From a virus, in the IMG/VR virus record IMGVR_UViG_3300033571_020901, positions 1 to 25,172 of that record: a stretch of 25,172 bases of DNA. The stretch is one strand, 5' to 3'. A program made the translations under genes and the position numbers. Below, piece after piece: positions 1,522 to 18,689 of the stretch. Below the pieces are notes generated by a model that was not told the origin of the DNA, did no database searches, and saw only the letters and a program-made list of their open reading frames with translations. Within the stretch, counting starts at the first letter, position 1; every line of letters begins with the position of its first letter.

Positions 1522-1595
1522 TGCCCCATCGTCTAAAGGTAGGACAGCGGATTTTGATTCCGTCAATGTTGGTTCGAGTCCAGCTGGGGCATCCA
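1522..1595 (+). tRNA. tRNA-Gln(TTG)
   Basis: Acceptor TGCCCCA pairs with TGGGGCA (1585-1591), discriminator T and encoded CCA. Stem GCGGA/TCCGT with loop TTTTGAT, anticodon TTG. T-loop GGTTCGAGTCC. Starts seven bases after the gapR stop codon. Confidence 0.94.
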
Positions 1596-1640
1596 TCTTA
1601 AGTCTTTGAAATGGTTAGATAAAAAAAATTAAATTAAACA

Positions 1641-1669
1641 TGTACATATTCTCATTTTTATGATAGGAT
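1641..1669 (+). promoter_or_regulatory. Early promoter P1 (TGTACA - 17 - TAGGAT)
   Basis: -35 TGTACA at 1641-1646, 17-bp spacer, -10 TAGGAT at 1664-1669. It shares the -35 box TGTACA, the following TATT and the 17-bp spacing with several other sites in this window. The expected start near 1676 falls at the 5' foot of a hairpin. It would drive the winged-helix gene at 1754. Confidence 0.75.
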
Positions 1670-1674
1670 AGGAT

Positions 1675-1734
1675 CATAATGAAGAAACAGACATCCTTCA
1701 TTATGTCTATGGGTAGTAAGTGCCCACCACTTAC
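1675..1734 (+). promoter_or_regulatory. Two consecutive hairpins in the leader of the winged-helix gene
   Basis: A perfect 10-bp inverted repeat CATAATGAAG (1675-1684) / CTTCATTATG (1696-1705) with an 11-nt loop starts at the predicted transcription start. It is followed by GTAAGTG (1716-1722) / CACTTAC (1728-1734) with a 5-nt loop. The Shine-Dalgarno of the next gene (GAGG near 1745) lies just after the second hairpin. Likely roles are 5'-end mRNA stabilisation or attenuation; neither hairpin is followed by a clear U tract. A 20-codon ORF (1679-1741) spans them, but its ATG lies too near the start site to have a ribosome site. Confidence 0.6.
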
Positions 1735-1753
1735 ATTTTGATATGAGGTAACT

Positions 1754-2020
1754 ATGACTAAAGCAAACACCAAGATCGAGAACCTTCTGGAAGCTTTTCA
1801 GAACGGCGACGAACTCACTCAGAAGCAGATGGTCAGCCGCTTCGGCTTCTCGTCTGACAACTCTGTCCGCGGCGCTATCACTGCCCTGCGTCAGAAGGGT
1901 TTCCCGATCTATGCCAATAAGCGCACCAACAGCAAGGGTGAGCTGAAGACGAAGTATCGTCTCGGTCAGCCTTCGCGCTCGGTGATCGCTGCGGGCTACC
2001 GCGCGATGGCTAACGCCTAA
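1754..2020 (+). CDS. Small winged-helix/HTH DNA-binding protein
   Basis: An 88-residue basic protein. Residues about 8-60 look like a helix-turn-helix with a wing: KIENLLEAFQNGDELTQKQM, then FGFSSDNSVRGAITALRQKG (recognition helix region), then a basic hairpin IYANKRTNSKGELKTKYRLG. The tail PSRSVIAAGYRAMANA is characteristic of a small protein common in T4-like phages. It probably binds DNA as a regulator; its target is unknown. It is the only gene between promoter P1 with its two leader hairpins and a strong terminator at 2041, so it forms a monocistronic early unit. Start ATG 1754 follows ATGAGGTAACT (GAGG). Confidence 0.75.
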   Translation: MTKANTKIENLLEAFQNGDELTQKQMVSRFGFSSDNSVRGAITALRQKGFPIYANKRTNSKGELKTKYRLGQPSRSVIAAGYRAMANA

Positions 2021-2040
2021 GTTTATAGCTTAAAACCACC

Positions 2041-2074
2041 AAAACGGGGGTGGCCTAGCTGCCCCCGTTTTTTT
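2041..2074 (+). terminator. Rho-independent terminator after the winged-helix gene
   Basis: AAAACGGGGG (2041-2050) pairs with CCCCCGTTTT (2062-2071), 11-nt loop, in a T run reaching 2074. A GC-rich 6-bp core flanked by A/T pairs is the classical intrinsic form. It lies 21 bases after the stop of the winged-helix gene and about 20 bases upstream of promoter P2. Confidence 0.92.
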
Positions 2075-2095
2075 ATGCCTTGTTCATTTTTAGGG

Positions 2096-2124
2096 TTTAC
2101 TTATTATCAAAACTTTGGTAGGAT
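2096..2124 (+). promoter_or_regulatory. Early promoter P2 (TTTACT - 17 - TAGGAT)
   Basis: -35 TTTACT 2096-2101, 17-bp spacer, -10 TAGGAT 2119-2124. The -35 departs from the TGTACA form, but spacer length and the following AGGCCTATAATGAAG leader match P3 closely. It sits directly behind the 2041 terminator, so terminator plus promoter form one insulating cassette. Confidence 0.7.
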
Positions 2125-2133
2125 AGGCCTATA

Positions 2134-2189
2134 ATGAAGAAGGAAGAAAACATGGCTTATCCCAAGACGATCCTCATCGGCGACCGCGT
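2134..2189 (+). repeat. 56-bp direct repeat, left copy
   Basis: Bases 2134-2189 are identical to 10193-10248 over all 56 positions. They span the 5' leader (with the AAGGAAG ribosome site) and the first 12 codons of the small gene. Upstream, 12 of the next 17 bases also match across the -10 region. Right of the repeat the sequences diverge at once. The two copies enclose the tRNA/csg/cyclase segment. Confidence 0.95.
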
Positions 2190-2307
2190 CAAGACGCCGA
2201 GCGGTCTTATCGGCACTGTAATAGATATCTTAGGTTCCACCTGCGAAGTAGAACTTGATGCTGGTGGCTTAATGCATTATAATGTTAAAGCTCTTAAAAA
2301 GATTTAA
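2152..2307 (+). CDS. Small SH3/KOW-like hypothetical protein
   Basis: A 51-residue protein beginning MAYPKTILIGDRVKTPSG, continuing LIGTVIDILGSTCEVELD and ending NVKALKKI. The pattern (GDRV...G..GTV...) resembles a compact KOW or SH3-like beta-barrel; that is a fold guess only. The start is ATG 2152 with Shine-Dalgarno AAGGAAG seven bases upstream. An in-frame ATG at 2134 lies almost at the predicted transcript start and lacks a ribosome site. The first 12 codons and leader are duplicated exactly in the gene at 10211, whose remainder is different, so the two may be paralogues diverged after the N-terminus or the product of recombination. Confidence 0.75.
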   Translation: MAYPKTILIGDRVKTPSGLIGTVIDILGSTCEVELDAGGLMHYNVKALKKI

Positions 2308-2325
2308 CGGATTAGGTGGGATAAG

Positions 2326-2556
2326 ATGACTGTTTCTGAACTTCGTGACATGTCTGATCTGAACAACGATATGATCTTTGAAGAGATCTCTGACGAACTT
2401 ATGCACATGACTCTTGGGCAGTTCTTTACTGCTCTTGAAGAGCGCGGCATTATGGATGACTTTAGCGATCTTGGTCGAATCTATTCAGAGTTCGTCGAGC
2501 GCATCTACGAAGAGCGCGCCGAACGTTATGAATATGAACGCATGGTGGAGATGTAA
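2326..2556 (+). CDS. Acidic hypothetical protein, 76 residues
   Basis: The protein is rich in Asp and Glu and predicted mostly helical (ISDELMHMTLGQFFTALEER, then EFVERIYEERAERYEYERMVEM). I recognise no domain. Start ATG 2326 follows GGTGGGATAAG (a GGTGGG ribosome site). It sits 18 bases after the preceding small gene and one base before the next, so the three genes behind P2 probably form one early operon. Small acidic early proteins of T4-like phages often target host enzymes, but nothing here identifies a target. Confidence 0.7.
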   Translation: MTVSELRDMSDLNNDMIFEEISDELMHMTLGQFFTALEERGIMDDFSDLGRIYSEFVERIYEERAERYEYERMVEM

Positions 2557-2557
2557 G

Positions 2558-2821
2558 ATGTTTCATGTTAATGTAGATCAGTTCTTAAATCGCACCAAGG
2601 GCAACTTCTCGATGAAGTTTCCGAACGGCTACACCGTCTCTCTCGCCATGGGCGACGGCATGTACTGTTCTGGTAATCAGACTCAGGGCTTTAGCTCGGT
2701 CGAGGTTGCTGCATGGGATGCTGATGGTAACTGGGTTAAGCTTGGTGATAACGATGATATTGTCGGCTGGCAGTCGACAGACGACGTTCTTGCCATAATG
2801 AATCGTGTGGCAGCGATGTAA
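2558..2821 (+). CDS. Hypothetical protein, 87 residues
   Basis: The product (MFHVNVDQFLNRTKGNFS... SVEVAAWDADGNWVKLGDND... DVLAIMNRVAAM) looks like a small alpha/beta domain with several beta strands in the middle and a C-terminal helix. It resembles conserved unnamed proteins of T4-like phages; no function can be assigned. The ATG at 2558 starts one base after the upstream TAA, in the arrangement TAAGATG, so translation is probably coupled. An in-frame extension upstream to 2414 exists but overlaps the 2326 gene and has no supporting ribosome site. Confidence 0.72.
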   Translation: MFHVNVDQFLNRTKGNFSMKFPNGYTVSLAMGDGMYCSGNQTQGFSSVEVAAWDADGNWVKLGDNDDIVGWQSTDDVLAIMNRVAAM

Positions 2822-2831
2822 ATAGGTTAAT

Positions 2832-2907
2832 GGGGACTTAGCTCAGTTGGGAGAGCGCTAGCTTTGCAAGCTTGAGGTCGGGGGTTCGATCCCCCCAGTC
2901 TCCACCA
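2832..2907 (+). tRNA. tRNA-Ala(TGC)
   Basis: Acceptor GGGGACT pairs with AGTCTCC (2897-2903, one G-T), discriminator A and encoded CCA. Loop TTTGCAA, anticodon TGC. T-arm GGGGGTTCGATCCCCC. Confidence 0.95.
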
Positions 2908-2908
2908 T

Positions 2909-2984
2909 GGACACTTAGCTCAGTAGGTAGAGCAACGGGCTTTTAACCTGTAGGTCCTGGGTTCGAGCCCCAGAGTGTCCACCA
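2909..2984 (+). tRNA. tRNA-Lys(TTT)
   Basis: Acceptor GGACACT pairs perfectly with AGTGTCC (2974-2980), discriminator A and encoded CCA. Stem ACGGG/CCTGT, loop CTTTTAA, anticodon TTT. Starts two bases after tRNA-Ala. Confidence 0.95.
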
Positions 2985-2989
2985 GTTTA

Positions 2990-3065
<76 letters not shown>

Positions 3066-3105
3066 GTTTGGGTCGGTAAAGCCAGTGGCTCTCGGAGTAA
3101 TCGAT

Positions 3106-3363
3106 ATGCGTGTTATCTACAAGTATGAGCTGATGCTCGGATACAACTCGATCGATCTGCCTGCAGGATATAAGGTCCTGAAGATTGCAGAGCAGTACGG
3201 AAACCTGACCATGTGGGTCGAGCAAGATTCGTCGTATCCTTCAAGTAGTGTTGTCTTCAATGTGTACGGAACTGGATACAGCATTCCTAATCCCAATGCA
3301 GTTCATGTCGGATCCGAGCTTATGGAATCTGGCCTCGTCTGGCACGTGTACGTCGATGGCTAG
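3106..3363 (+). CDS. Conserved phage hypothetical protein (DUF7352-like), 85 residues
   Basis: Starts MRVIYKYELMLGYNSIDLPA and continues GYKVLKIAEQYGNLTMWVEQD, with a glycine-rich, beta-strand-rich body and an end WHVYVDG. The pattern of KYEL..., P.G.....V..Q.G...LW... resembles small phage proteins grouped as DUF7352; I hold that name loosely. ATG 3106 is preferred because GGAG (3094-3097) lies eight bases upstream. An in-frame GTG at 3085 lacks a good site. The gene lies between tRNA-Lys and a degenerate tRNA-like sequence, and its TAG stop falls inside that element. Confidence 0.65.
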   Translation: MRVIYKYELMLGYNSIDLPAGYKVLKIAEQYGNLTMWVEQDSSYPSSSVVFNVYGTGYSIPNPNAVHVGSELMESGLVWHVYVDG

Positions 3364-4080: not shown

Positions 4081-4103
4081 TTAGCTTCAGGCTTCGTGGC
4101 TCG

Positions 4104-4111
4104 TATAAATA
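4104..4111 (+). promoter_or_regulatory. Possible T4-type late promoter box ahead of the csg operon
   Basis: TATAAATA at 4104-4111 matches the T4 late -10 octamer exactly. A start about 13 bases from the first T would fall at 4117, the ATG of the next gene, implying a leaderless message for that gene but a normal leader for those downstream. It may be fortuitous; two other copies of the octamer in this window are better placed. Confidence 0.4.
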
Positions 4112-4116
4112 TCAGT

Positions 4117-4404
4117 ATGAGCTATGACATCGTATTCAAAATTATAGCTGACGTTGGATTCCCTATCGCAGCAGCTTTGCTAGGTGGGGTCTTTGTTTAT
4201 CATATTCTGAAGTACATCATGGACGGTGTAGTTTCCCAACTTAAGGGTCTACAAGGCATAATCGGTGCATTAGACAATCGTGTCAAAACTATGAATCATG
4301 ACATTATACGAGTCGATGCAGTCGTAAGTTCTGCCCTGGGCCTCAGACCAGATCTTGATAGGATCGCTCGAGCCGACGGTAAGAACGATGCCAGGAGAGA
4401 TTAG
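4117..4404 (+). CDS. Small membrane-anchored coiled-coil protein
   Basis: From ATG 4117 the product is 95 residues: MSYDIVFKIIADVGFPIAAA, a membrane segment around residues 12-35, then a helical tail (LKGLQGIIGALDNRVKTMNH) ending in charged residues. It resembles the protein encoded at 4583 in plan and in the motif GFPI(A/V)AA followed by a membrane helix and a coiled-coil. Such single-helix plus coil proteins recall BhlA/UviB holin-like or other phage membrane proteins; no function is proven. A GTG at 4096 would add seven residues; ATG 4117 aligns better with the paralogue, though its ribosome site is poor. Confidence 0.65.
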   Translation: MSYDIVFKIIADVGFPIAAALLGGVFVYHILKYIMDGVVSQLKGLQGIIGALDNRVKTMNHDIIRVDAVVSSALGLRPDLDRIARADGKNDARRD

Positions 4405-4593
4405 TTGGAGCTTATGGGAACAACTTATGCTGACTACATATTTGAGATTTTAAGCGATGGATCGATCCTTATGGATCGTGACATTACATCGAAGGATTTC
4501 TCGGTTTGTAGGTCCGGTGATCAATATACCTTCGTGATCAATGATAATGGACGAATCGTTTTAAGAAAGAACGTCGTCCAAAATGAACCCTGA
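4405..4593 (+). CDS. Hypothetical protein, 62 residues, TTG start
   Basis: The product has a beta-rich pattern (DYIFEILSDGSILMDRDITS, then VCRSGDQYTFVINDNGRIVL) suggestive of a small beta-barrel or sandwich; no family recognised. TTG 4405 immediately follows the TAG of the previous gene and has AGGAGAG nine to thirteen bases before it, while ATG 4414 has GGAG too close to act. The 3' end overlaps the next gene by 11 bases. Both junctions imply translational coupling within the operon. Confidence 0.6.
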   Translation: MELMGTTYADYIFEILSDGSILMDRDITSKDFSVCRSGDQYTFVINDNGRIVLRKNVVQNEP

Positions 4594-4852
4594 ACAATTA
4601 AGTGAACTGATATCTAAGTACGGATTTCCCATAGTCGCTGCTGTGGGGATGGGCTTTTTTATCAAGTTCATATATTCACATGTAACCACTCAAATTATAC
4701 CAGTCATAAAAGAAACGAACGCCACCCTTATTGCGTTGATCGATCGTATCAGAATGCTTGACAATGATCTGATCCGCTTACAACAGAAGGTGAGTGTACT
4801 ATTACAGCTGCGAGAGGAAGGAAATCGAGATGACCATAAGTCTAAAGATTGA
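4583..4852 (+). CDS. Membrane-anchored coiled-coil protein (BhlA/UviB-like layout)
   Basis: An 89-residue protein: MNPEQLSELISKYGFPIVAA, a membrane segment about residues 15-36, then a long helix (ETNATLIALIDRIRMLDNDL, IRLQQKVSVLLQLREE) with a coiled-coil heptad feel and a charged tail. It appears paralogous to the 4117 product. Proteins with this shape recur in T4-like phages of Alphaproteobacteria and cyanobacteria. A holin-like role is possible, but a dedicated holin lies next to the endolysin at 18690, so a scaffold or envelope role in this operon is equally plausible. It overlaps its neighbours on both sides. Confidence 0.68.
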   Translation: MNPEQLSELISKYGFPIVAAVGMGFFIKFIYSHVTTQIIPVIKETNATLIALIDRIRMLDNDLIRLQQKVSVLLQLREEGNRDDHKSKD

Positions 4853-4961
4853 ACTCCTCAAGATACTTAATATTGAATTTAGCTTCTCTTCTGATAAAAA
4901 AGAGAAAGAAGAAGATGCTGAAAAGGATACTGATCCTAACGTTCTTGATGTTCTTAAGTAG
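4830..4961 (+). CDS. Tiny overlapping hypothetical gene upstream of csgF, 43 residues
   Basis: ATG 4830 has an excellent ribosome site (AGGAAGG). The product is MTISLKIELLKILNIEFSFS followed by a strongly charged SDKKEKEEDAEKDTDP and VLDVLK. It overlaps the previous gene by 23 bases and csgF by 47 bases in another frame. The amphipathic N-terminus and acidic/basic tail give no family hint. Overlap with csgF suggests that translating this ORF could regulate access to the weaker csgF start. Confidence 0.55.
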   Translation: MTISLKIELLKILNIEFSFSSDKKEKEEDAEKDTDPNVLDVLK

Positions 4962-5364
4962 TCCTGCTCTTGCAGGAGATATAGTACAGCAGTTTAAGAG
5001 CCCATCCTTTAACGGTTACGGATGGTCTTCGCATGTACAGTCTATAGAACAGCAAGAGCGATCGCGAGAACAAGCTATCAAAGACAAGGCTGCGGCTGAA
5101 GAAGCCAAAGCTCTGGCTGCTGCGTCCAACACACCGTTGGCTAAGTTCATGCAACTGTTCACGGCGCAAGTCTATTCACAACTGGCCACTCAGCTTTCCA
5201 ACAGCTTGTTTGCTGAAGGTAGCACGAACAACGGTGGATCCTTTCAACTCGACGGGAACACCATAAGCTATGTCAAGACCGGCACAGACGTCACCCTGAC
5301 GGTGGTCGATCTCTCTGGTAAAATCACAGTGATAAGTGTCCCAATAGCATCATTTGCTTTCTAG
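4915..5364 (+). CDS. csgF: CsgF-like curli assembly factor
   Basis: The 149-residue product carries a Sec signal peptide (MLKRILILTFLMFLSSPALA, cleavage before G21), then the hallmark mature start DIVQQFKSPSFNGYGWSS, comparable with the F-R-N-P-x-F-G-G-N motif of E. coli CsgF that binds the CsgG channel. The middle ATPLAKF-like helix (TPLAKFMQLFTAQVYSQLAT) and the C-terminal strands (TGTDVTLTVVDLSGKITVIS) follow CsgF order and length (138 residues in E. coli). CsgF caps the CsgG pore at the cell surface and couples secretion to fibre nucleation. ATG 4915 is chosen because it gives an intact signal peptide. The csgG start lies nine bases downstream, so the pair is co-expressed. Confidence 0.9.
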   Translation: MLKRILILTFLMFLSSPALAGDIVQQFKSPSFNGYGWSSHVQSIEQQERSREQAIKDKAAAEEAKALAAASNTPLAKFMQLFTAQVYSQLATQLSNSLFAEGSTNNGGSFQLDGNTISYVKTGTDVTLTVVDLSGKITVISVPIASFAF

Positions 5365-5372
5365 GAGGTCAA

Positions 5373-6188
5373 ATGAAAAAGCTACTGGGACTAATCTCAT
5401 TTGTACTCTTGACTGGCTGCGCAGGCAGTGTTCATCCTACTCTTAATCAAAGCTTTGTCTTGAGAGGAGATGCCAAAGTCGCGACGTTTGCAAACGCAGA
5501 CATCATGCAAACCGTCCCGGAACTGGACGGGCCTCCTATACCGGTGGCAGTGTATTCTTTTACTGACAGGACCGGTCAAAGAAAACCGTCACATTCTTTA
5601 TCCTCTTTCTCTACTGCGGTGACTCAGGGCGCAGATGCCTATGTCATCAAGACTCTACAAGATGTCGGTGGTGGAAAATGGTTCATTCCTGTCGAACGTG
5701 TCGGCATCGATAACCTGATCAAAGAACGTCAGCTTATCAGACAGATGCGCGAACAGGTTCAAGGTGAAGATGTGACGTCTCTACCTCCGCTGATGGTGGC
5801 CGGAATCATCCTCGAAGGCGGAATCATTGACTACAACTCTAACATCAAGACTGGTGGATTGGGTGTAAGAGTGTTTGGCATAGGTCCTCACACTCAGTAC
5901 ATAGAAGATCAAGTGATCATCCATCTTAGACTTGTGTCTGTACAGACAGGCGAGGTACTAACGTCTGTCACAGTTCAAAAGAATCTACTATCCACATCAG
6001 AAGGCGTGACAGCCTTCAAATTCTTTAATGTGGGAACTAACGCATTTGAACTAGACGGACAACAGACATCTAACGAACCAGGGAATTATGCTATACGTTC
6101 AGCCATAGAGACCGGTGTTGTTGAGCTCATTAAAAATGGTGAAAATAAGGGTCTATGGCGCTTTAAAACACAGGAAGAAAACAAATGA
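5373..6188 (+). CDS. csgG: CsgG-like outer-membrane curli secretion channel (lipoprotein)
   Basis: A 271-residue protein (277 in E. coli) with a lipoprotein signal MKKLLGLISFVLLTGC (lipobox LTGC, Cys16). Family landmarks follow in order: VAVYSFTDRTGQRKPS, FSTAVTQGADAYVIKTLQD, KWFIPVERVGIDNLIKERQL, ILEGGIIDYNSNIKTGGLGV, RVFGIGPHTQYIEDQVIIHL, SVQTGEVLTSVTVQKNLLS, TSNEP and AIETGVVELI. These cover the periplasmic and transmembrane hairpin regions of the nonameric CsgG pore. It exports unfolded curlin across the outer membrane. A strong AGGAGGT ribosome site precedes ATG 5373. The end overlaps the curlin gene (ATGA). Finding CsgG in a T4-like phage is unusual; the gene appears full length and intact. 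Confidence 0.95.
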   Translation: MKKLLGLISFVLLTGCAGSVHPTLNQSFVLRGDAKVATFANADIMQTVPELDGPPIPVAVYSFTDRTGQRKPSHSLSSFSTAVTQGADAYVIKTLQDVGGGKWFIPVERVGIDNLIKERQLIRQMREQVQGEDVTSLPPLMVAGIILEGGIIDYNSNIKTGGLGVRVFGIGPHTQYIEDQVIIHLRLVSVQTGEVLTSVTVQKNLLSTSEGVTAFKFFNVGTNAFELDGQQTSNEPGNYAIRSAIETGVVELIKNGENKGLWRFKTQEENK

Positions 6189-6970
6189 GACTCCACATAA
6201 CAGCACTCTTTGCGGTGTTGTTTGCTTCTACTGCGGCCGTAGCACAGGTGGCGACACCCCAGGCCGTGGTATTGCCCACCGCACCTACTCCGCCGGCGAT
6301 CGTTACTTCTTCTCCTAATGAGAACGAAGCTGCAGCCATAGCAACGACCAACAAGGTCTATATCGATCAGACCGGTCAAAACGTCGAAGTTAACATAGAG
6401 CAGTCTGGTACAGGTAACCGTGTAGGTACTGGTCTAGACAAGATAGTACTGAGCGGAGACAATCAGACGGTAACGGCGATTCAGGACGGCGATAATAACC
6501 AGCTTTATTTGACTGTGACTTCAGGTACTGGTCAGACAGGATTAGCAACAATCACGACTCAACAGATCGGTGATATCAACTATGCCCTCATCCGTTGTGG
6601 TGATGGCAATACGACCAGCTGTAACCAGCTTGATATGAACGTTCGTTTTACAGGAAACAACAATCGTTTTGAGTTTCTTGGTAACGGAGAAAACATTCGC
6701 AATTCAATGGATGTCAACGGTAACAACAACGAGTTCTACTTGGACGTTGATAGTCCTAATGCCACTCAGACTGTCTTAGTGACAGGAGATCAGAACATCT
6801 TCAACGTTACACAGACTGGACTAGGAGGTACTTTTGGACATTCGTTGTATACGAACTTTACGGGTTCTGGTAACATCGTCAATACGAATCAACAAGGCGC
6901 TACAGAGACTATAATCAATATTCAAGCGGTCGGTAGCAATGGCACGTATAACATTACTACTGTTAATTAG
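6185..6970 (+). CDS. Curlin-repeat (CsgA/CsgB-like) secreted amyloid candidate
   Basis: A 261-residue protein with a signal peptide (MRLHITALFAVLFASTAAVA), a Pro/Thr/Ala-rich spacer to about residue 50, then degenerate repeats rich in Q, N and G: YIDQTGQNVEVNIEQSGTGN, VLSGDNQTVTAIQDGDNNQL, ITTQQIGDINY, FTGNNNRFEFLGNGEN, VNGNNNEFYLDV, VTGDQNIFNVTQTG, FTGSGNIVNTNQQG and IQAVGSNGTYNI. This follows the curlin plan of strand-turn-strand units with Q-x-G-x-x-N turns. A unique loop RCGDGNTTSC holds two Cys that could form a disulfide. Placed right after csgF/csgG, it is the obvious export substrate. It is longer than E. coli CsgA (151), and no separate nucleator (CsgB) or CsgE is visible. The end overlaps the FecR gene by 32 bases. 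Confidence 0.85.
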   Translation: MRLHITALFAVLFASTAAVAQVATPQAVVLPTAPTPPAIVTSSPNENEAAAIATTNKVYIDQTGQNVEVNIEQSGTGNRVGTGLDKIVLSGDNQTVTAIQDGDNNQLYLTVTSGTGQTGLATITTQQIGDINYALIRCGDGNTTSCNQLDMNVRFTGNNNRFEFLGNGENIRNSMDVNGNNNEFYLDVDSPNATQTVLVTGDQNIFNVTQTGLGGTFGHSLYTNFTGSGNIVNTNQQGATETIINIQAVGSNGTYNITTVN

Positions 6971-8081
6971 TCTACTACTGTTAATTAGTCTACTCGCGTT
7001 ATCGACTCCTGCGATGGCATCAATCGGGTCGATAACAGAGTTTAAAGGCGCTGGCTCCATAAAACGGGCCGCAAGAACTATGCCAGCGGCAAGAGGATCT
7101 GGGATAGAAAAGAACGATACAATTTCTACGACTTCTCAAGGACGTTTTAGGATTACGTTTGTTGATTCTACCAACGTTAATATCACTGAGAACTCTAGAC
7201 TCGTCATCGATGACTTTGTATTCGACGGAAATGCAAAAGCAAAAGGTCGACTAGGGCTCAAAGTAGCTTTAGGCACAGTTCGCTATGCGTCTGGAGGCAT
7301 CGCTCATGGCAATACAAAGGGTGTCAACATTAGAACGCCTACAGCCACCATCGGAGTTAGAGGCACAGACTTTGTCATGTCAGTCGACGAGGCTGGAAGG
7401 ACCATGGTCGTTCTGTTGCCAGCGTGCTTCGACGACGCAGACATGTTCAAAGACACGAACGACTGCGAGGTCGGAGAGATCGAGGTGATCACTGCAAGCG
7501 GAGTGGTGACAATGAATCAGCCGTTTCAGGCGACCGTCGTCGAGAGCTCGTTCGTCCCTCCGTCTCCGCCTACCACCGTCAACATGACCATGAAGCAGCT
7601 TGACAATAACCTCCAAATCTCGGCGCCTGCTAGTGATTCAGGAGAAAGTGTCATCGGTCGAGCACGCAGAGATCTCAAAAAGAGCACCAATCCTGCTGCA
7701 GCAGCGGCAGACGACAATCAAGATCCGGACGTAGGAGCTTCTATAGAACAGGTGGCTGTAATCATTCAGCAACCTCCCACTCAAGACGAACTGTATCAGA
7801 TCTTCAAAGAGTTTAATCCTGAAAAAGAATTAGTAGCTACTCTGCAGACAAACGTTTCACCGTATCTAGAGAAACAGGTGCAAGTTGGTTGGGTCTACTC
7901 TAGCTTGTCACAAGATGCCGGTCAACTGACCACCATCTTTTTAGAAAAGACTACAGACACAGAGATCATCGTTGTTCAGAATGGACTGATAGACTACTTC
8001 AACTTTGCTGACCATAAGTGGCCTACTTCAGGCATGGGCAGATCACAGGGCAGCATAACGATATGGCAATCTAATAAATAG
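6939..8081 (+). CDS. FecR-domain periplasmic protein
   Basis: A 380-residue protein with a long, leucine-rich signal peptide (MARITLLLLI, repeated core, cleavage near PAMA-S). Residues about 28-160 form a FecR domain: GSGIEKNDTISTTSQGRFRI, TFVDSTNVNITENSRLVIDD, then IRTPTATIGVRGTDFVMSVD, the signature R-T-P-x-A-x-x-G-V-R-G-T-x-F. A 2-Cys insertion (LLPACFDDAD, NDCEVGE) and a Pro/Ala-rich linker follow, then a C-terminal region of unknown fold. FecR domains sit in the periplasm and relay or scaffold signals. Here the gene overlaps the curlin gene and lies three bases before a CHASE2-cyclase. An 18-bp tandem duplication at 6955 lengthens the signal peptide by six residues. Confidence 0.88.
   Translation: MARITLLLLISLLLLISLLALSTPAMASIGSITEFKGAGSIKRAARTMPAARGSGIEKNDTISTTSQGRFRITFVDSTNVNITENSRLVIDDFVFDGNAKAKGRLGLKVALGTVRYASGGIAHGNTKGVNIRTPTATIGVRGTDFVMSVDEAGRTMVVLLPACFDDADMFKDTNDCEVGEIEVITASGVVTMNQPFQATVVESSFVPPSPPTTVNMTMKQLDNNLQISAPASDSGESVIGRARRDLKKSTNPAAAAADDNQDPDVGASIEQVAVIIQQPPTQDELYQIFKEFNPEKELVATLQTNVSPYLEKQVQVGWVYSSLSQDAGQLTTIFLEKTTDTEIIVVQNGLIDYFNFADHKWPTSGMGRSQGSITIWQSNK
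6955..6994 (+). repeat. 18-bp tandem duplication in the curlin/FecR overlap
   Basis: TACTACTGTTAATTAGTC occurs at 6955-6972 and again at 6973-6990, with four more matching bases after. The first copy contains the curlin stop codon TAG (6968-6970). In the FecR frame each copy encodes six hydrophobic residues (LLLLIS), so copy number sets signal-peptide length in steps of six without shifting frame. Confidence 0.92.
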
Positions 8082-8084
8082 GCC

Positions 8085-10130
8085 ATGAAAAAGATAGTAC
8101 TTTCACCTTGGATGGCAGTCCTTACATTCACGCTACTTTTGGCGGTGAAGCTGCTTGATCCATATCTAGTAGAAGCTACTAGACTGAAGTTTTATGACTT
8201 CCTCATGTTAGATAATTCTAAGCAGTCTGAACAGATTGTCTTGGCAAACATCGGCGAAAAGGCGATTGAGACGTACGGTCAATATCCATTTCCCCGAGGT
8301 ACATATGTCAAGATTCATTCAGACCTGTATTCTGCTGGCGCTGGTCTCGTCGGCACTACTATTCTTTATCCTGATCCCGATCGTTTCGGAGGTGACAAAG
8401 AACTTGCAGGCAGTTTCAGAAGCGCTCCGGTAGTTTTATCACAGACGACTCTGCCATCGTGTCCAAGTAAAGAAACCCGCAATCCTCGAACGATTGGCGT
8501 TGCGGTGATTGGAGATGGTCAGGCCACCGACTATCTACCGGATTATCCTTGCGTAATATCAAATGTTGAAGTTCTTCAGCAAGCCGCAGTTGGTGTTGGA
8601 GTAACTTCGACTCTTCCCGAATCAGATGGAGTCGTTCGGAGAGTTCCTCTTCTTGCGACTTCAGGCAGTGAATACTATCCAGCGTTTGCTTTAGAAATGC
8701 TTCGAGTAGCTGCGGGAGATCCCTCGTATCAGGCGAAAGTGAATGTGACGGGTGTTGAAGCATTACGAGTTCCTTCATATGAAACAATTAAGACGGATGA
8801 GTATGGTCGGATCTTTATCAATCCGAACTTTCGATTTCAGTCAATCGAAATTGGTGAGGGTCCTTTACCAGACCTGAGTGGTAAAATAGTGATAGTTGGC
8901 GTAACTGCTGCTGGTATCGCGAACCCTGTAGCGACTCCCTCAGGTGCGCAGAATCCCCATCAACTCCAGGCCAGCATTCTAGAGACTCTTCTGAATGGTG
9001 AATCTGCGTCGATTCCAAATTGGATTCCTTTGGTGGATCTTGGCTCATTCGTATTCCTCGCGCTGGCGCTGATAGTGTTGTCTAGATTTAGGTTTTCCTG
9101 GATATATATCATTATACTCCTGTCTGCCTATATGTACATACCTTTCTATCTGTTTGGCAGCAAGAATATTCTGCTAGACGTCACTTTTAATTTTGCTGCA
9201 GCTATACTGATCTACGTACACATCTTTACTGCCAAGTACATCTCTGAATACATGCAGAAGATGCAGATCAAGAAGCAGTTTGGTACGTATCTTTCACCAG
9301 CAATGGTAGAGAAGCTACAAAAAAATCCAGAGTTGTTGACGCTCGGCGGAGAGTCCCGTGAGCTGTCTATCATGTTCACAGACGTACGTGGATTTACCAC
9401 AATCTCAGAGCACTATGGCAAGGACGTTCAAGGTCTGACAAAGATCATGAACCGCTACATGACTGCCATGACCTCTAGAATCATAGAAAATAACGGCACG
9501 CTAGATAAGTATATAGGCGACGCTCAGATGGCATTTTGGAATGCTCCGCTTGACGACGAGGAGCATGCGCTGAACGCCGTCAAGACTAGTCTGGCGATGC
9601 TTAAAGACTTGGAGAAATTCAATGAAGAGATATCTCAAGAAGGCATTCCTGCTTTTGGCATGGGTCTTGGCATTAATACTGACACCGTTGTGGTTGGCAA
9701 TATGGGTTCTACTCAGCGGTTTGACTATACTTGTCTTGGCGACGGGGTTAATCTCGCCTCGAGACTGGAAGGACAATCCAAACCTTACGGGGTTAAAATC
9801 ATTATTGGGCCAAAAACCGCCGAGTATGTAAGAGCAAAGTATCAGGTCGTAGAGCTAGATCTTATAGCTGTCAAAGGCAAGACCGAACCGGCCCGAATCT
9901 ATACCGTTTTAGGAAAGATTGACAAGAGCTCTGAAATTGCTCACTTCCGATTCCTTGATGCCTACAGACAAGGTGAATGGGACAGAGCTCTAAACATGGC
10001 TGTTGTCATGAAACACGTTTGGGCAGGGGCCTTAAAAGACTACTATAAGATGATGGAAGCTCGCATCAGGGAGCTCCAGGACAGCCCGCCGGCCAACTGG
10101 GACGGGGTCTACAGGGCCTCCTCAAAATAA
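8085..10130 (+). CDS. CHASE2-domain membrane adenylate cyclase (class III)
   Basis: A 681-residue receptor cyclase. An N-terminal membrane helix (about 8-24) leads to an extracytoplasmic CHASE2 domain (about 30-300; FYDFLMLDNSKQ, QYPFPRGTYVKIHSDLYSAG, LPDLSGKIVIVGVTA), then three membrane helices (about 310-385) and a linker YLSPAMVEKLQKNPELL. The catalytic domain has metal ligands Asp433 (FTDVRGFT) and Asp479 (KYIGDAQM), purine-specifying Lys475, and DYTCLGDGVNLASRLEG with Thr549, Asn556 and Arg560. Lys/Thr pairing is the class IIIb adenylate cyclase pattern, and all catalytic residues are present, so it should make cAMP. A C-terminal 50-residue helical tail follows. In bacteria, CHASE2-cyclases and FecR proteins often neighbour each other. 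It ends the operon, before promoter P3. Confidence 0.93.
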   Translation: MKKIVLSPWMAVLTFTLLLAVKLLDPYLVEATRLKFYDFLMLDNSKQSEQIVLANIGEKAIETYGQYPFPRGTYVKIHSDLYSAGAGLVGTTILYPDPDRFGGDKELAGSFRSAPVVLSQTTLPSCPSKETRNPRTIGVAVIGDGQATDYLPDYPCVISNVEVLQQAAVGVGVTSTLPESDGVVRRVPLLATSGSEYYPAFALEMLRVAAGDPSYQAKVNVTGVEALRVPSYETIKTDEYGRIFINPNFRFQSIEIGEGPLPDLSGKIVIVGVTAAGIANPVATPSGAQNPHQLQASILETLLNGESASIPNWIPLVDLGSFVFLALALIVLSRFRFSWIYIIILLSAYMYIPFYLFGSKNILLDVTFNFAAAILIYVHIFTAKYISEYMQKMQIKKQFGTYLSPAMVEKLQKNPELLTLGGESRELSIMFTDVRGFTTISEHYGKDVQGLTKIMNRYMTAMTSRIIENNGTLDKYIGDAQMAFWNAPLDDEEHALNAVKTSLAMLKDLEKFNEEISQEGIPAFGMGLGINTDTVVVGNMGSTQRFDYTCLGDGVNLASRLEGQSKPYGVKIIIGPKTAEYVRAKYQVVELDLIAVKGKTEPARIYTVLGKIDKSSEIAHFRFLDAYRQGEWDRALNMAVVMKHVWAGALKDYYKMMEARIRELQDSPPANWDGVYRASSK

Positions 10131-10154
10131 TTTCATTTTAATTAAAAAAGGGCA

Positions 10155-10183
10155 TGTACATATTCTCCATTATGGGGTAAGGT
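10155..10183 (+). promoter_or_regulatory. Early promoter P3 (TGTACA - 17 - TAAGGT)
   Basis: -35 TGTACA 10155-10160, 17-bp spacer, -10 TAAGGT 10178-10183, followed by GGACCTATGATGAAG as in P2 and P4. It starts the four-gene operon at 10211-11068. Its leader is the right copy of the 56-bp repeat. Confidence 0.75.
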
Positions 10184-10192
10184 GGACCTATG

Positions 10193-10248
10193 ATGAAGAA
10201 GGAAGAAAACATGGCTTATCCCAAGACGATCCTCATCGGCGACCGCGT
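10193..10248 (+). repeat. 56-bp direct repeat, right copy
   Basis: Exact copy of 2134-2189, same orientation, 8059 bases away. It covers the leader with the AAGGAAG ribosome site and the first 12 codons of the gene at 10211. The segment between the copies carries nine protein genes of the surface-fibre operon plus smaller genes and six tRNAs. Confidence 0.95.
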
Positions 10249-10468
10249 TCGTTATGAGTCTGCCGCAGGCACCATTCGTGGCGAAGTTGTCAAGATCATG
10301 AAGGACTACAACGCAGCTGACGACCTGATCGATTGGATCTATGTTCAGTTCTACAATGAAAAGTCACCTTCCAAGTACTCGATCGCTCGACTGGCTGATA
10401 CGTCGCTGGAGATGATGAAGTTCGTGGTGACGTTCCGCGATATTGCTATTCAGAAGAGAGTTGCATAA
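10211..10468 (+). CDS. Small SH3/KOW-like hypothetical protein, paralogue of 2152 gene
   Basis: An 85-residue protein beginning MAYPKTILIGDRV, exactly as the product at 2152, then diverging: RYESAAGTIRGEVVKIMKDY, DDLIDWIYVQFYNEKSPSKY and a C-terminal helix. The GDRVRYESAAGTIRGEVV segment resembles a KOW/SH3-like beta hairpin. ATG 10211 has AAGGAAG seven bases upstream; upstream in-frame ATGs at 10190 and 10193 fall at the predicted transcript start. First gene of the P3 operon; its TAA overlaps the next ATG by one base. Function unknown. Confidence 0.75.
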   Translation: MAYPKTILIGDRVRYESAAGTIRGEVVKIMKDYNAADDLIDWIYVQFYNEKSPSKYSIARLADTSLEMMKFVVTFRDIAIQKRVA

Positions 10469-10680
10469 TGTCTCAGATTTCTCCCATGGCTTCGTGCGCT
10501 CAGAAGCACATGTACAAGAGCTGGATTAGGGAAAATCCTGAACTGGCACTAGAGCGCGTCGAAGCCTTCTGTCGTGAAGCCAAAGAACGCGGCATGATGC
10601 TACGCTACTACGAAGACGATCACTATGTAGACGTGGTGGCAGCTTTTACTGAAACTGATTTGGAAGCGAGGTATATATAA
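10468..10680 (+). CDS. Hypothetical protein, 70 residues
   Basis: The product (MSQISPMASCAQKHMYKSWI, RENPELALERVEAFCREAKE, RGMMLRYYEDDHYVDVVAAF) is predicted mainly helical and has two Cys without a metal-binding pattern. It shares one base with the previous stop (TAATG) and one with the next start, showing tight translational coupling. No recognisable family. It is early-expressed by position, behind P3. Confidence 0.7.
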   Translation: MSQISPMASCAQKHMYKSWIRENPELALERVEAFCREAKERGMMLRYYEDDHYVDVVAAFTETDLEARYI

Positions 10681-10883
10681 TGACTGGTGTGAATGAGATG
10701 ATCCTTGCACAGGACGATCCTTTTGAATTTGTCTATGAGGCCATCACAGGCGTTCATGGCGTCGAGATCCGCGACTACATTCAGGAAATGTATAACGACG
10801 TGGTCATTGACTGCGGCTATCATCCTGATGATGACTTCGAAGAAATCATCTCTCGTATCATCGATCTTCTGGAGGACATGTAA
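10680..10883 (+). CDS. Acidic hypothetical protein, 67 residues
   Basis: A strongly acidic helical protein (DDPFEFVYEAITGVHGVEIR, DYIQEMYNDVVIDCGYHPDD, DFEEIISRIIDLLEDM). It overlaps both neighbours by one base in TAATG junctions. The periodic pattern of hydrophobics with DDDFEEII resembles small acidic phage proteins of unknown role, possibly a DNA mimic or host-enzyme binder; that is speculation. Confidence 0.7.
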   Translation: MTGVNEMILAQDDPFEFVYEAITGVHGVEIRDYIQEMYNDVVIDCGYHPDDDFEEIISRIIDLLEDM

Positions 10884-11068
10884 TGAAGAGCAATACGATT
10901 GAATACTTTGGCATGCCCACAGTGGAGCGTGCTATTGCTCACTACTTCTATGTTCATGGTGTAACCGAAAACGTTCGTGACAAGCTCATGCGAATGGAGT
11001 CAGAAGACGAAGACGAGTTTTTCCAGCTGGTCTGTGACTTTGTGGAGACGACTACGCCCGTCAAGTAA
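10883..11068 (+). CDS. Acidic hypothetical protein, 61 residues
   Basis: The product (MKSNTIEYFGMPTVERAIAH, YFYVHGVTENVRDKLMRMES, EDEDEFFQLVCDFVETT) shares general character with its upstream neighbour: helical, acidic, with VRDKL...E-E-F-x-x-L/I. A common origin is possible but weak. Last gene of the P3 operon. The stop lies six bases before tRNA-Leu(TAA), which is presumably processed from the same transcript. Confidence 0.68.
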   Translation: MKSNTIEYFGMPTVERAIAHYFYVHGVTENVRDKLMRMESEDEDEFFQLVCDFVETTTPVK

Positions 11069-11074
11069 CCTTTT

Positions 11075-11158
11075 GGGGACGTGGCGAAATCGGTAAACGC
11101 AAGGCACTTAAAATGCCTCGGTAAATCCTTGCGGGTTCGAGTCCCGCCGTCCCTACCA
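11075..11158 (+). tRNA. tRNA-Leu(TAA)
   Basis: A class II tRNA of 84 nt. Acceptor GGGGACG pairs with CGTCCCT (11148-11154, first pair G-T), discriminator A, CCA 11156-11158. Stem AGGCA/TGCCT, loop CTTAAAA, anticodon TAA (reads TTA/TTG), with an extended variable arm. Confidence 0.93.
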
Positions 11159-11165
11159 AAATACA

Positions 11166-11194
11166 TGTACATATCCTAAAACACAGTATATATA
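11166..11194 (+). promoter_or_regulatory. Early promoter P5 (TGTACA - 17 - TATATA)
   Basis: -35 TGTACA 11166-11171, 17-bp spacer, -10 TATATA 11189-11194. The predicted start near 11201 lies just upstream of tRNA-Asn (11210). No protein gene follows for over 500 bases, so this promoter appears dedicated to the tRNA and the structured RNA region. Confidence 0.72.
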
Positions 11195-11209
11195 GAATAC
11201 ATAAGTTAT

Positions 11210-11284
11210 TCCGGTGTAGCTCAGCGGTAGAGCCCTCGACTGTTAATCGAGTGGTCGTAGGTTCGAATCCTACCGCCGGAGCCA
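11210..11284 (+). tRNA. tRNA-Asn(GTT)
   Basis: Acceptor TCCGGTG pairs with CGCCGGA (11274-11280, one T-G), discriminator G and encoded CCA. Stem CTCGA/TCGAG, loop CTGTTAA, anticodon GTT. T-arm GTAGGTTCGAATCCTAC. Confidence 0.95.
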
Positions 11285-11285
11285 T

Positions 11286-11742
11286 TTTAGATGCGGGAAG
11301 TTAAAGGTAGTTGCAACTGCCTTGACAAGGCACACTATGAGAGTCTTTGAACTTGAACTGCTTAACCCGCATATTCCGCGCCGGTATCCTATCGCCTCGT
11401 GGTCTCAGTAATGATAGGATATGACTCTGATTGCCCGTCGGTCAGAGCGAGATGAATGTCTGCTGGAGCCCGGCGGACATAGGGCGGGCCAAATTTGCCC
11501 TTGATCTGGGACACGGTCGTCGTGCAGTTAGACTAAGATCCCCTGCATTCAGGGGTACGTGGGGGAGGATCCCACAGGGCATCCAAGATCACTGCCGACG
11601 GGTGGTGTAAGAAGCGTGACTGAATAAGGTCCTTGTCAGTGGACCTAAAGTAGATCCGGGGATTGGTCTCCCGCTCAACCGGCAAACGGATCGTTGACCG
11701 AGATTACGATAGGTAATTGACTGGGTCTTGAAGGTATAACCA
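11286..11742 (+). ncRNA. Candidate large structured non-coding RNA
   Basis: This stretch has no plausible gene but many independent stems: ATGCGGG 11291/CCCGCAT 11366; TATCCTATC 11385/GATAGGATA 11413; CTCTGA 11425/TCAGAG 11442; TGTCTGC 11457/GCGGACA 11473; CACG 11512/CGTG 11521; CCCCTG 11540/CAGGGG 11550; GTGGG 11559/CCCAC 11571; AGGTCC 11627/GGACCT 11641; GATCCG 11653/CGGATC 11687; ATTAC 11703/GTAAT 11713. The loop CCCGTCGG (11434-11441) is perfectly complementary to CCGACGGG (11595-11602), a likely pseudoknot. It follows tRNA-Asn and promoter P5. Large ornate phage RNAs such as GOLLD and ROOL also sit beside tRNAs, but I cannot match their consensus. Ends are approximate. An unusually long riboswitch-like leader is the main alternative. 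Confidence 0.7.
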
Positions 11743-11770
11743 AATCCTTCCGCTTCGCCTTTAAAGGATT
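11743..11770 (+). promoter_or_regulatory. Hairpin sequestering the ribosome site of the YkgJ-type gene
   Basis: AATCCTT (11743-11749) pairs with AAGGATT (11764-11770). The 3' arm contains AAAGGA, the only Shine-Dalgarno-like sequence before ATG 11774. Folding would hide it, so translation could depend on unfolding or on the upstream RNA structure. No U tract follows, so it is not a terminator on the plus strand. Confidence 0.5.
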
Positions 11771-11773
11771 CAT

Positions 11774-12115
11774 ATGAGAGAGTGTGGTGAGTGCACAGCC
11801 TGTTGTTCAGGAGCTTTGAGCGCCGATATCCATGGAATTCCAATGCATCGAGGAAAGCCATGTCACTTTCTAAACAAACTAGAGGTGCATGGTTGTGCGA
11901 TCTACGATCAACGCCCTGAAGTGTGTAGAAGATACCTATGCGCATGGATGACAGAAGATCTTCCTGAAGAACTCAAACCGAGTAATTGTAACTTTATAGT
12001 CCACAATAGAATGAAGACTCAAGGAAGATATAACATGATTCGTGTGGATGCATCTAAACCTCTCAAAGAGGAACATAAATTACTATATAATAACTGGCTT
12101 AAACAAAAAAAGTGA
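11774..12115 (+). CDS. YkgJ-family cysteine-cluster protein
   Basis: A 113-residue protein with the family-type N-terminal cluster CGECTACCSG (Cys4, 7, 10, 11), then KPCHFL (Cys30), HGCAIYDQRPEVCRRYLC (Cys41, 51, 56). This spacing (CxxCxxCC ... C ... GC.IY..RP..CR.F.C) matches the YkgJ/UPF0153 putative zinc- or iron-chelating domain. The biochemical role of the family is not settled; metal binding or redox handling is assumed. The C-terminal half is basic with no other domain. Start ATG 11774 lies behind a hairpin that masks AAAGGA. It is followed seven bases later by a peroxiredoxin gene, which fits a redox or metal-stress pairing, though that is inference. Confidence 0.82.
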   Translation: MRECGECTACCSGALSADIHGIPMHRGKPCHFLNKLEVHGCAIYDQRPEVCRRYLCAWMTEDLPEELKPSNCNFIVHNRMKTQGRYNMIRVDASKPLKEEHKLLYNNWLKQKK

Positions 12116-12122
12116 GGTTATC

Positions 12123-12698
12123 ATGAATAATAAATTAGTTTCTTCAGAGGGAATTGAAGAGTATACTGATCTGCCTGAAGTAGTTCCTTCTGTAGTGTTT
12201 AAAACCCGCATCAGGGATGAGTCGATTGGTGGATCTAATCCATATCGCTGGCAAGACGTGACCACGTTTGAGCTTTTTGCTGGTAAGCGCGTAGTCCTCT
12301 TCTCACTTCCTGGCGCCTTCACACCCACCTGTTCTACATACCAGCTTCCTGGCTTTGAAGAAAAGTTTTCTGAGTTCAAGGCTCTCGGCATCAAGGACAT
12401 CTATTGCATCTCCGTCAACGATGCCTTTGTCATGAACAAGTGGGCTAAGGATCAGAAGATCAAGAAGGTCAAAGTTATTCCTGATGGCAACAGTGAGTTT
12501 ACGAGTGCCATGCGTATGGAAACAGGAAAGTTCAATCTTGGCTTCGGATATCGGTCTTGGCGTTACGCTTGCGTCGTCAACAACGGCAAGATCGAGAAGT
12601 GGTTCGTTGAACCTGGAAAGACCTGGAACTGTGAGACTGATCCATATGGTGAAACCTCTCCAGAAAATATCCTGAATTGGTTGAAGGAAAACAGCTAA
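12123..12698 (+). CDS. Peroxiredoxin (Prx5/AhpE-like thiol peroxidase)
   Basis: A 191-residue thioredoxin-fold protein. The active-site segment SLPGAFTPTCSTYQLPGFEE contains the P-x-x-x-T-x-x-C motif with peroxidatic Cys70 and Thr67, followed by GIKDIYCISVNDAFVMNKWA, typical of the Prx5 subfamily. Other Cys lie in YACVVNN and TWNCETD and could serve as a resolving residue. The family reduces hydrogen and organic peroxides using thiol donors in the cytoplasm. There is an N-terminal extension of about 20 residues. GAGG precedes ATG 12123. It overlaps the next ATG by one base. A phage copy would protect the infected cell from oxidative damage. Confidence 0.92.
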   Translation: MNNKLVSSEGIEEYTDLPEVVPSVVFKTRIRDESIGGSNPYRWQDVTTFELFAGKRVVLFSLPGAFTPTCSTYQLPGFEEKFSEFKALGIKDIYCISVNDAFVMNKWAKDQKIKKVKVIPDGNSEFTSAMRMETGKFNLGFGYRSWRYACVVNNGKIEKWFVEPGKTWNCETDPYGETSPENILNWLKENS

Positions 12699-12862: not shown

Positions 12863-13339
12863 ATGAAGAATCTGATGATTACGACCGCTGCAGCTGCTGC
12901 GGCAATGTTTGCGACTCCTGCACTGGCTGGCGACTTCGCTGGTCCTCGTGTGGAAGTTACAGCCGGAGCTGATGACGTGACAGCTGGCGTTGATCCTACT
13001 GATGTGACCTACGGTGCTGGCGTCGGCTACGACCTTCAGTTCGGTAACATCGTAGCTGGCGTTGAAGCCAACGTGGACAACGTGTTCGATCGTCGTGATA
13101 TCGGCGTTGGTGCTCGACTCGGCTACGTGTTGAACGAGAACGTGCTTGTCTATGGCAAGGCAGGTTACTCGAACTGGCGTCAGGCAGCTGGCGTTGACAC
13201 CGAAGGCCTTCGTCTCGGCGGTGGTCTTGAAGTGAACCTCGCTGGCCCGGTCTATGCCAAGGCAGAGTATCGCTATACTGACTTCGAAGGTGGTCAGGGC
13301 AAGCATGGCGGTCTGGTCGGCGTCGGCCTCCGCTTCTAA
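12863..13339 (+). CDS. Outer-membrane beta-barrel protein (porin/Omp25-like family)
   Basis: A 158-residue protein with a classical signal peptide (MKNLMITTAAAAAAMFATPA, cleaved before GDF). The mature part alternates polar and hydrophobic residues in about eight strands: PRVEVTAGADD, VTYGAGVGYDLQFGNIVAGV, DIGVGARLGYVLNENVLVYG, KAGYSNWRQAAG, GLRLGGGLEVNLAGPVYAKA, EYRYTDFEGG. It ends LVGVGLRF, with C-terminal Phe as the BAM recognition signal. Similar small barrels are abundant in Rhizobiales and Sphingomonadales. Codon use is smooth and GC-rich (CTC, GGC, GTC). ATG 12863 follows ATGAGGTAATTAAT. A phage-encoded barrel could alter receptors and block superinfection, or stabilise the envelope. 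Confidence 0.88.
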   Translation: MKNLMITTAAAAAAMFATPALAGDFAGPRVEVTAGADDVTAGVDPTDVTYGAGVGYDLQFGNIVAGVEANVDNVFDRRDIGVGARLGYVLNENVLVYGKAGYSNWRQAAGVDTEGLRLGGGLEVNLAGPVYAKAEYRYTDFEGGQGKHGGLVGVGLRF

Positions 13340-13362: not shown

Positions 13363-13539
13363 ATGGCAAAGAAAAACACGACTGCACTTTTAGTAGGAGT
13401 GGCAGCTCTGGCTGCTATAGGCTATATCGGCTACCGTCTTCTGAAGGACGAACTAGATAAGCTCGATGACATCGATTGGGGAAACCTAGACGAAGCCATG
13501 TTTCCAGGAAAGTATCCTACAGATAATGATCTACAATAG
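13363..13539 (+). CDS. Small single-pass membrane protein, 58 residues
   Basis: The product is MAKKNTTALLVGVAALAAIG, continuing YIGYRLLKDELDKLDDIDWG: a short basic start, one membrane helix (about residues 8-25) and an acidic soluble tail ending in YPTDNDLQ. GAAAGGTAG before ATG 13363 can serve as ribosome site. It overlaps the FkbM methyltransferase gene by 14 bases. It follows the outer-membrane barrel by 23 bases, so the two may be co-expressed envelope proteins. Role unknown. Confidence 0.65.
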   Translation: MAKKNTTALLVGVAALAAIGYIGYRLLKDELDKLDDIDWGNLDEAMFPGKYPTDNDLQ

Positions 13540-16797: not shown

Positions 16798-16853
16798 CCA
16801 TGTCTACGCCTAATGGGTAGACTTAATTAACCTCGCTGAAAAGGAGAATGTAT

Positions 16854-17366
16854 ATGACTGGATGGAACTTTAACCATACCTTTAAGGACTTCGATCGTTT
16901 CTTCGTTGGATTTGATCCAATAGTCAAGAAGATCGCTACCGCAGCCGAACAGGCTGCCAAGCTGGCTCAAGAAGCCAAGTATCCTCCATACAACATCAAG
17001 AAAGTAGACGAGAATCGCTACGTCATCGAGATGGCTGTCGCTGGCTTCGGCAAGCAAGACATCGAACTCGAACTTGTAGGCGATAAGCTCGTTATCAAGG
17101 GCAATGCCAAGTCAGGAGACGAAGCTCTTCCTGATGGCACATATCCCGCATATCTCTATCATGGTCTAGCTCAGCGTCCGTTTACGCGGCACTTCACGCT
17201 TGCTGACAATGTCGAGGTGGCTGGTGCTCAGCTTCTCAACGGCATCCTCAAGATCGGCCTCGAAGCCATCATCCCTGAGGAAAACAAGCCCAAGAAGATC
17301 GATATCACCACCGATGAAGACAAGGACGAAGGCGCTTCGTTCGTAGACCAGAAGAAAGTGAAGTAA
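16854..17366 (+). CDS. hsp20: Hsp20/alpha-crystallin small heat-shock chaperone
   Basis: A 170-residue protein of the IbpA type. The N-terminal FNHTFKDFDRFFVGFDPIVK is the usual aromatic-rich arm; the alpha-crystallin domain runs about residues 43-140 (YPPYNIKKVDENRYVIEMAV, AGFGKQDIELELVGDKLVIK, LAQRPFTRHFTLADNVEVAG, AQLLNGILKIGLEAIIPEEN) including the A-x-x-x-n-G-v-L-type motif. T4-like cyanophages carry similar genes, thought to hold folding intermediates during virion assembly. ATG 16854 is chosen over 16848 because AAGGAG sits seven bases before it. It is preceded by a late promoter and a leader hairpin. Confidence 0.93.
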   Translation: MTGWNFNHTFKDFDRFFVGFDPIVKKIATAAEQAAKLAQEAKYPPYNIKKVDENRYVIEMAVAGFGKQDIELELVGDKLVIKGNAKSGDEALPDGTYPAYLYHGLAQRPFTRHFTLADNVEVAGAQLLNGILKIGLEAIIPEENKPKKIDITTDEDKDEGASFVDQKKVK

Positions 17367-18679: not shown

Positions 18680-18689
18680 GTGTCACCTA

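Follow-up and report, generated by a model that had tools for sequence, protein, structure and literature searches.

A divergent phage curli module with FecR-domain, CHASE2 cyclase and small membrane protein genes in a T4-like phage fragment

The module and its setting

The stretch of DNA analysed here ("the window") is a whole IMG/VR virus record of 25,172 bp. It is a fragment of a T4-like phage, with a GC content of ~47%, 15 tRNA genes, and a DNA polymerase ~51% identical to those of cyanomyophages. Seven genes at 4096-10130 form one module:

4096..4404, + strand: smA, small membrane protein of 102 aa (phrog_18771, E 1.3e-31; alignment; hydropathy)
4583..4852, + strand: smB, 89-aa paralogue of smA (phrog_18771, E 7.8e-30; module-linked in most loci)
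4915..5364, + strand: CsgF, signal peptide followed by the CsgG-binding start GDIVQQFKSPSFNGYG (PF10614, E 1.6e-16)
5373..6188, + strand: CsgG, outer-membrane lipoprotein pore (PF03783, E 1.1e-50)
6185..6970, + strand: curlin (CsgA/CsgB-like), 261 aa, with signal peptide (by family profile and predicted fold)
6939..8081, + strand: secreted FecR-domain protein, 380 aa (PF04773, E 3.5e-11)
8085..10130, + strand: CHASE2 class III adenylate cyclase, 681 aa (PF05226, E 5.7e-33; PF00211, E 3.2e-19)

The start of the curlin gene overlaps the csgG stop codon (ATGA), the first 32 nt of fecR lie within the curlin gene, and curlin, FecR and cyclase genes follow one another without a gap. The original prediction, made from the sequence of the window, placed intact and coupled genes for CsgF, CsgG and a 261-aa repeat protein at 4915-6970, which is what is found. 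As a reading of this phage as curli-bearing it holds for the gene identities and was too narrow in scope, with the FecR-domain protein, the cyclase and the small pair missed. Its view that a curli set in a phage is unexpected is out of date: csgF and csgG were described in pelagimyophages in 2020 (Zaragoza-Solas; PMC7029224) and, with an idea about lysis, in Methylophilales phage Melnitz in 2022 (Buchholz; PMC9004378), and the full module with curlins, FecR and adenylate cyclase, its expression in metatranscriptomes, and its transfer across phage families were reported in the same year (Wittmers; PMC9599517). The window module is a new, divergent example of these published cassettes. In the literature searched, neither a functional test of the phage module nor a report of a fibre from such a phage was found.

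CsgF, CsgG and the repeat protein

CsgF aligns to its Pfam model over nearly the full length. CsgG carries a lipobox (LLTGC), with a Shine-Dalgarno sequence (AGGAGG) ahead of its gene, and matches the E. coli CsgG structures over residues 47-269 (E 3e-48). Its constriction loop is one residue longer than that of E. coli; of the E. coli constriction residues, Phe is retained and Tyr and Asn are not.

For comparison with bacteria, 38 chromosomal csgG loci, with up to ~8 kb on either side, were taken from 385 alphaproteobacterial and 398 same-phylum genomes. The phage CsgGs form one clade in the resulting tree (support 100/99), apart from all 38 bacterial sequences, and the window phage is placed as a divergent member outside the branch of Pelagibacter phage HTVC008M and Melnitz. 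A CsgG match in "Salmonella phage S.Kent 1-2-1," a 1499-bp record, was discounted, as this is probably host DNA. A remote CsgG-like protein (27% identity) is present in 350-kb Brevundimonas jumbo phages (ON529851-ON529860), outside this module.

CsgE (PF10627) had no match in the 25-kb window, an incomplete genome. It is not a defining curli part, since alphaproteobacterial curli modules are reported to lack it (PMC9599517). The lack of a match to the CsgE gate would suit a pore through which CsgG admits larger nutrients to the infected cell, a use raised by both Zaragoza-Solas 2020 (PMC7029224) and Wittmers 2022 (PMC9599517). Such a role leaves CsgF, the one or two conserved curlins, and the selection on the curlin unexplained, and we consider it very unlikely.

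The 261-aa repeat protein has no Pfam match of its own. In the Pfam search proposed as a check on the original prediction, CsgF and CsgG were recovered; Curlin_rpt was missed in the window protein alone and matched in 12 of 19 aligned family members (best E 1.5e-6). A profile of the family searched against the PDB has a solved curlin, 8c50, as its sole significant match (E 1.7e-4). Structure prediction, another of the proposed checks, came out in favour of a curlin: the AlphaFold2 model, from alignments built from virus contigs, is a strand-turn-strand beta-solenoid (mean pLDDT 81.5). Foldseek gave no significant match of this model in the PDB (best E 0.04); when its candidates were realigned with VIA-align 2, 8c50 (CsgA of Pontibacter korlensis) ranked first, with Z 19.6 for an alignment of 211 residues, and the next candidates were unrelated solenoids scoring no higher than Z 18. 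Because the superposition on 8c50 has a large rmsd (8.9 Å), the fold match backs the sequence evidence and cannot stand alone. Relative to composition shuffles, the protein is enriched in G..N turns (9 observed, 3.8 expected) and Q.G (7 observed, 1.9 expected). The phage curlin profile also detects repeat proteins near 29 of the 38 bacterial csgG genes, with no matches in a control set of 29 cyclase loci. Judged by family profile and predicted fold, the repeat protein is a curlin. A second curlin gene, found before the cyclase gene in relatives, is absent from the window.

Conservation, selection, and exchange among phages

A search for the csgF-csgG-curlin trio in other phages, also proposed with the original prediction, finds it in dozens of virus contigs and in HTVC008M and Melnitz. 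The order common to 80 virus contigs with CsgG and these two phages, judged only where a contig is long enough, is smA-smB-csgF-csgG-curlin-fecR-(second curlin)-cyclase; in some contigs the small pair is sited elsewhere nearby. This order is constant across phages whose CsgGs are deeply diverged. In each of the seven genes, the curlin included, Nei-Gojobori dN/dS falls in the range 0.02-0.17 for those pairs whose dS is informative, which points to strong purifying selection on the whole module.

A misjoin of host DNA to phage DNA, the failure that the original prediction had allowed for, or a decaying passenger, could be suspected from base composition: GC3 is 0.41-0.51 for the module genes, below the 0.57-0.66 of the phage core genes tested. 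Misassembly is unlikely, however, because dozens of virus contigs, each assembled separately, and two phages in culture have the genes in this order; taken with the low dN/dS and the separate phage CsgG clade, this leaves the explanation a negligible probability, and it was rejected.

Some relatives differ in ways that suggest recent movement. Contigs L023 and L042 are 96.9% identical over 4,977 bp (7594-12570 in each), from within csgF to within the cyclase gene; the sequences on either side are unrelated, and changes in smA/smB are close to saturation. A csgF-csgG-curlin-FecR block (7480-10729) is common to L077 and L078 at 96-97% identity, with flanks otherwise unrelated. In L109 and L111 the whole block is deleted, and an open frame fuses the N-terminus of CsgF (~65 aa) to the C-terminus of the cyclase; the junctions fall at the same places as in L023/L042, early in csgF and late in the cyclase gene. 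Only a csgF stub remains in L113, and L116 and L210 have no remnant of the module. From these sequence comparisons, the csgF-to-cyclase block is read as a cassette that passes between unrelated phages and has been deleted from others. These recent events are a new contribution over the published work.

Two further observations concern the deleted loci. The in-frame CsgF-cyclase fusion, of 128 aa (L111:10327-10713 and L109:4734-5120), lies beside a NUMOD3/HNH endonuclease gene. In L104, a gene for a calcineurin-like metallophosphoesterase (10261-11199) stands in the place of the curli genes, flanked by a CsgF-like start and a downstream CHASE2 remnant.

The small pair

The smA product has an N-terminal hydrophobic segment at about residues 11-42 and a conserved coiled-coil-like tail ending RIARADGKNDARRD; that of smB has a hydrophobic segment followed by a conserved LIALIDRIRMLDNDLIRL motif. 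Each protein has a single hydrophobic stretch, and the coiled-coil-like tail is highly conserved in both. No Pfam family matches smA above the cut-off. The published module is described as having one or two histidine kinases ahead of it in every case (PMC9599517). By position and count, these "HK" genes are most likely smA/smB. The kinase label is unsupported: these are proteins of 89-102 aa in which a Pfam search, with the E cut-off relaxed to 10, shows no kinase domain (HisKA/HATPase). The re-reading of the pair as probable non-kinases is new relative to published work.

A scan of ~85,000 species genomes for smA/smB returned 14 loci, mostly in MAG records; 10 of them have other module genes adjoining, and the remainder resemble phage contigs. 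The idea of smA/smB as bacterial genes was dropped, since in the genome collections they occur only on such phage-like contigs. Among virus contigs, a search from the window smB found csgG in 57 of 76 loci, most of the others being truncated. The pair of contig L155, a phage of 68% GC that lacks csg genes, was also used as a query: of the 77 further loci found, 70 have other module genes within 6 kb, and the order and orientation of these vary. In L155 itself (1540-3111), the genes directly after smA-smB encode a small membrane-type protein (phrog_1544) and a GH108 endolysin.

Control of lysis timing by the pore was proposed by Buchholz 2022 (PMC9004378); with the small pair added here, the CsgG/CsgF pore and a holin-like smA/smB would depolarise or gate the envelope late in infection. 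The N-terminus of smB does match a holin PHROG (phrog_4898), weakly and over 20 residues only (E 1.9e-4 in the window; also weakly, E 4.4e-5, in L155), the L155 pair is directly upstream of the membrane-type protein and endolysin just described, and Melnitz cultures grew without observed clumping (PMC9004378). However, CsgG is an outer-membrane pore and lysis is triggered at the inner membrane; a bare pore has no need of a curlin under purifying selection; an M15/GH19 endolysin is encoded elsewhere in the window (17498-18679); the small pair is sometimes retained after deletion of the pore genes; and the L155 context is one locus. Lysis timing is on balance a rather unlikely function of the module. 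That smA/smB act at the inner membrane, perhaps in connection with lysis, is no more than a lead.

The FecR-domain protein and the cyclase

The model of the FecR-domain protein (mean pLDDT 77.8) resembles 4m0h, PupR (6ovk), and the surface-anchor domain of 5ix9. Strands of the form IxxxQDG...IxIxQ, curlin-like by eye, are present at its C-terminus; a true curlin repeat there was rejected, as comparison with the curlin profile is not significant (E 0.06).

The cyclase is laid out as a periplasmic CHASE2 domain, ~3 further TM segments, and a cytoplasmic cyclase domain. Residues D433, K475, D479, and R560 are invariant across 123 sequences; the window also has N556, in place of which 27 of the 123 have Ser. 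With catalytic aspartates, substrate lysine, and transition-state Arg/Asn all in place, the window protein is by sequence a class III cyclase. CHASE2-cyclases are common in alphaproteobacteria (strong matches in 173 of the 385 genomes sampled), and FecR adjoins the cyclase gene in five of 29 alphaproteobacterial loci inspected. FecR and CHASE2-cyclase genes are likewise clustered in Campylobacterota (PMC9239204), and in S. meliloti smc02177, a FecR gene near CyaD1, is dispensable for signal perception (PMC5498481). From their domains and these bacterial clusters, the two phage proteins may be a signalling pair.

The circuit could even be the main function, with curlin, FecR, and cyclase serving to set host cAMP according to the state of fibre or pore, and adhesion secondary. 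The invariant cyclase residues, the likeness of the FecR fold to anti-sigma domains of cell-surface signalling, the curlin-like strands noted by eye, and the status of FecR and cyclase as phage-specific additions (beside none of the 38 bacterial csgG genes) would all fit; against this, no output such as a CRP-like receptor was identified, and the C-terminal strands fail the profile comparison. We regard a primarily sensory module as unlikely.

Comparison with known systems

The same gene order, HK-CsgF-CsgG-CsgA/B-FecR-(CsgA/B)-adenylate cyclase, defines the T8SS region of HTVC023P-type podophages and pelagimyophages (PMC9599517). The window has this order if smA/smB are taken as the HK genes, and differs in that its phage is T4-like and divergent, at ~47% GC, and in having a single curlin. 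HTVC008M (KC465899) has a complete module with two smA/smB genes and a second curlin before the cyclase; its CsgG and cyclase are 46 and 39% identical to those of the window, which has no such second gene. Melnitz (MZ577097; CsgG ~46% identical) also has a complete module: the record annotates curlin repeat proteins, FecR, and cyclase, and the paper reports csgF and csgG only, proposing lysis control (PMC9004378).

Chromosomal curli operons of Pseudomonadota share CsgF (35 of 38 loci), CsgG, and curlin repeats (29 of 38) with the phage module; FecR, CHASE2-cyclase, and smA/smB were found beside csgG in none of the 38, and no bacterial operon with all components was among them. This count of phage-specific parts is new here. 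It is the small pair and FecR/cyclase, not the curli genes, that mark the phage module off from bacterial operons. Conversely, the FecR-cyclase linkage of Campylobacterota (PMC9239204) and S. meliloti (CyaD1/SMc02177; PMC5498481) resembles that of the window but is uncoupled from curli export, and a phosphodiesterase and a TPR protein are additionally encoded in the Campylobacterota clusters. The simplest history would be a single ancient union, inside phages, of a bacterial csgFG-curlin unit with a FecR/CHASE2-cyclase unit.

Possible function of the cassette

The reading that we rank first, and consider moderately probable, is of a mobile phage cassette which, in the infected cell, supplies a type VIII (curli) secretion line together with a sensor running from envelope to cAMP. 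CsgF, CsgG, curlin, and the FecR-domain protein would be exported by Sec; CsgG and CsgF would form an outer-membrane pore and its cap, through which the curlin would leave to assemble into fibres at the cell surface. The periplasmic FecR-domain protein, in presumed contact with the inner-membrane CHASE2 cyclase, would translate the condition of the envelope or fibre line into cAMP, to be read by a postulated receptor, and smA/smB may be a phage-specific, membrane-associated accessory. The phage could benefit from the altered surface of the infected cell if sibling cells were kept close or receptors masked from rival phages; sibling capture and a block to superinfection, pay-offs also named in the original prediction, had already been proposed in print (PMC7029224, PMC9004378, PMC9599517).

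Several observations count against this cassette reading: the lack of clumping in Melnitz and of a CsgE match in the window, the dispensability of smc02177 for perception in S. meliloti, and the persistence of several related phages that have lost the module. A further scheme sees a new composite put together by phages, in which the phage-specific membrane pair and FecR/CHASE2-cyclase sensor are built onto an amyloid exporter, so that secretion of fibres in the infected cell is sensed, converted to cAMP, and used to time steps of the infection, lysis for one; this we hold to be quite unlikely.

If the secretion and signalling cassette is functional, infected cells would gain both a secretion system and a second-messenger circuit. 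SAR11 and the OM43 host of Melnitz reportedly lack the curli side of the module. The module is common, appears to be under strong selection, and is exchanged between phages; the small pair and FecR/cyclase, being its phage-specific parts, offer concrete experimental handles.

Other genes in the window

The M15 peptidase/GH19 endolysin gene and an adjoining gene for a membrane-type protein of unknown family occupy 17498-19226 on the minus strand; these are likely the phage's own lysis genes, and are distant from the curli module. A 158-aa outer-membrane beta-barrel protein with a signal peptide (12863-13339; OMP_b-brl, E 8.9e-15) could possibly act in surface modification or superinfection exclusion. 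A peroxiredoxin gene (Redoxin PF08534, E 1.1e-25) is at 12123-12698, and two methyltransferase-like genes (Methyltransf_24; FkbM type) are found amid clusters of tRNA and small genes at 325-918 and 13526-14221. At 16848-17366 is a gene for an Hsp20-type small heat-shock protein, which the module-free relative L116 has as well.
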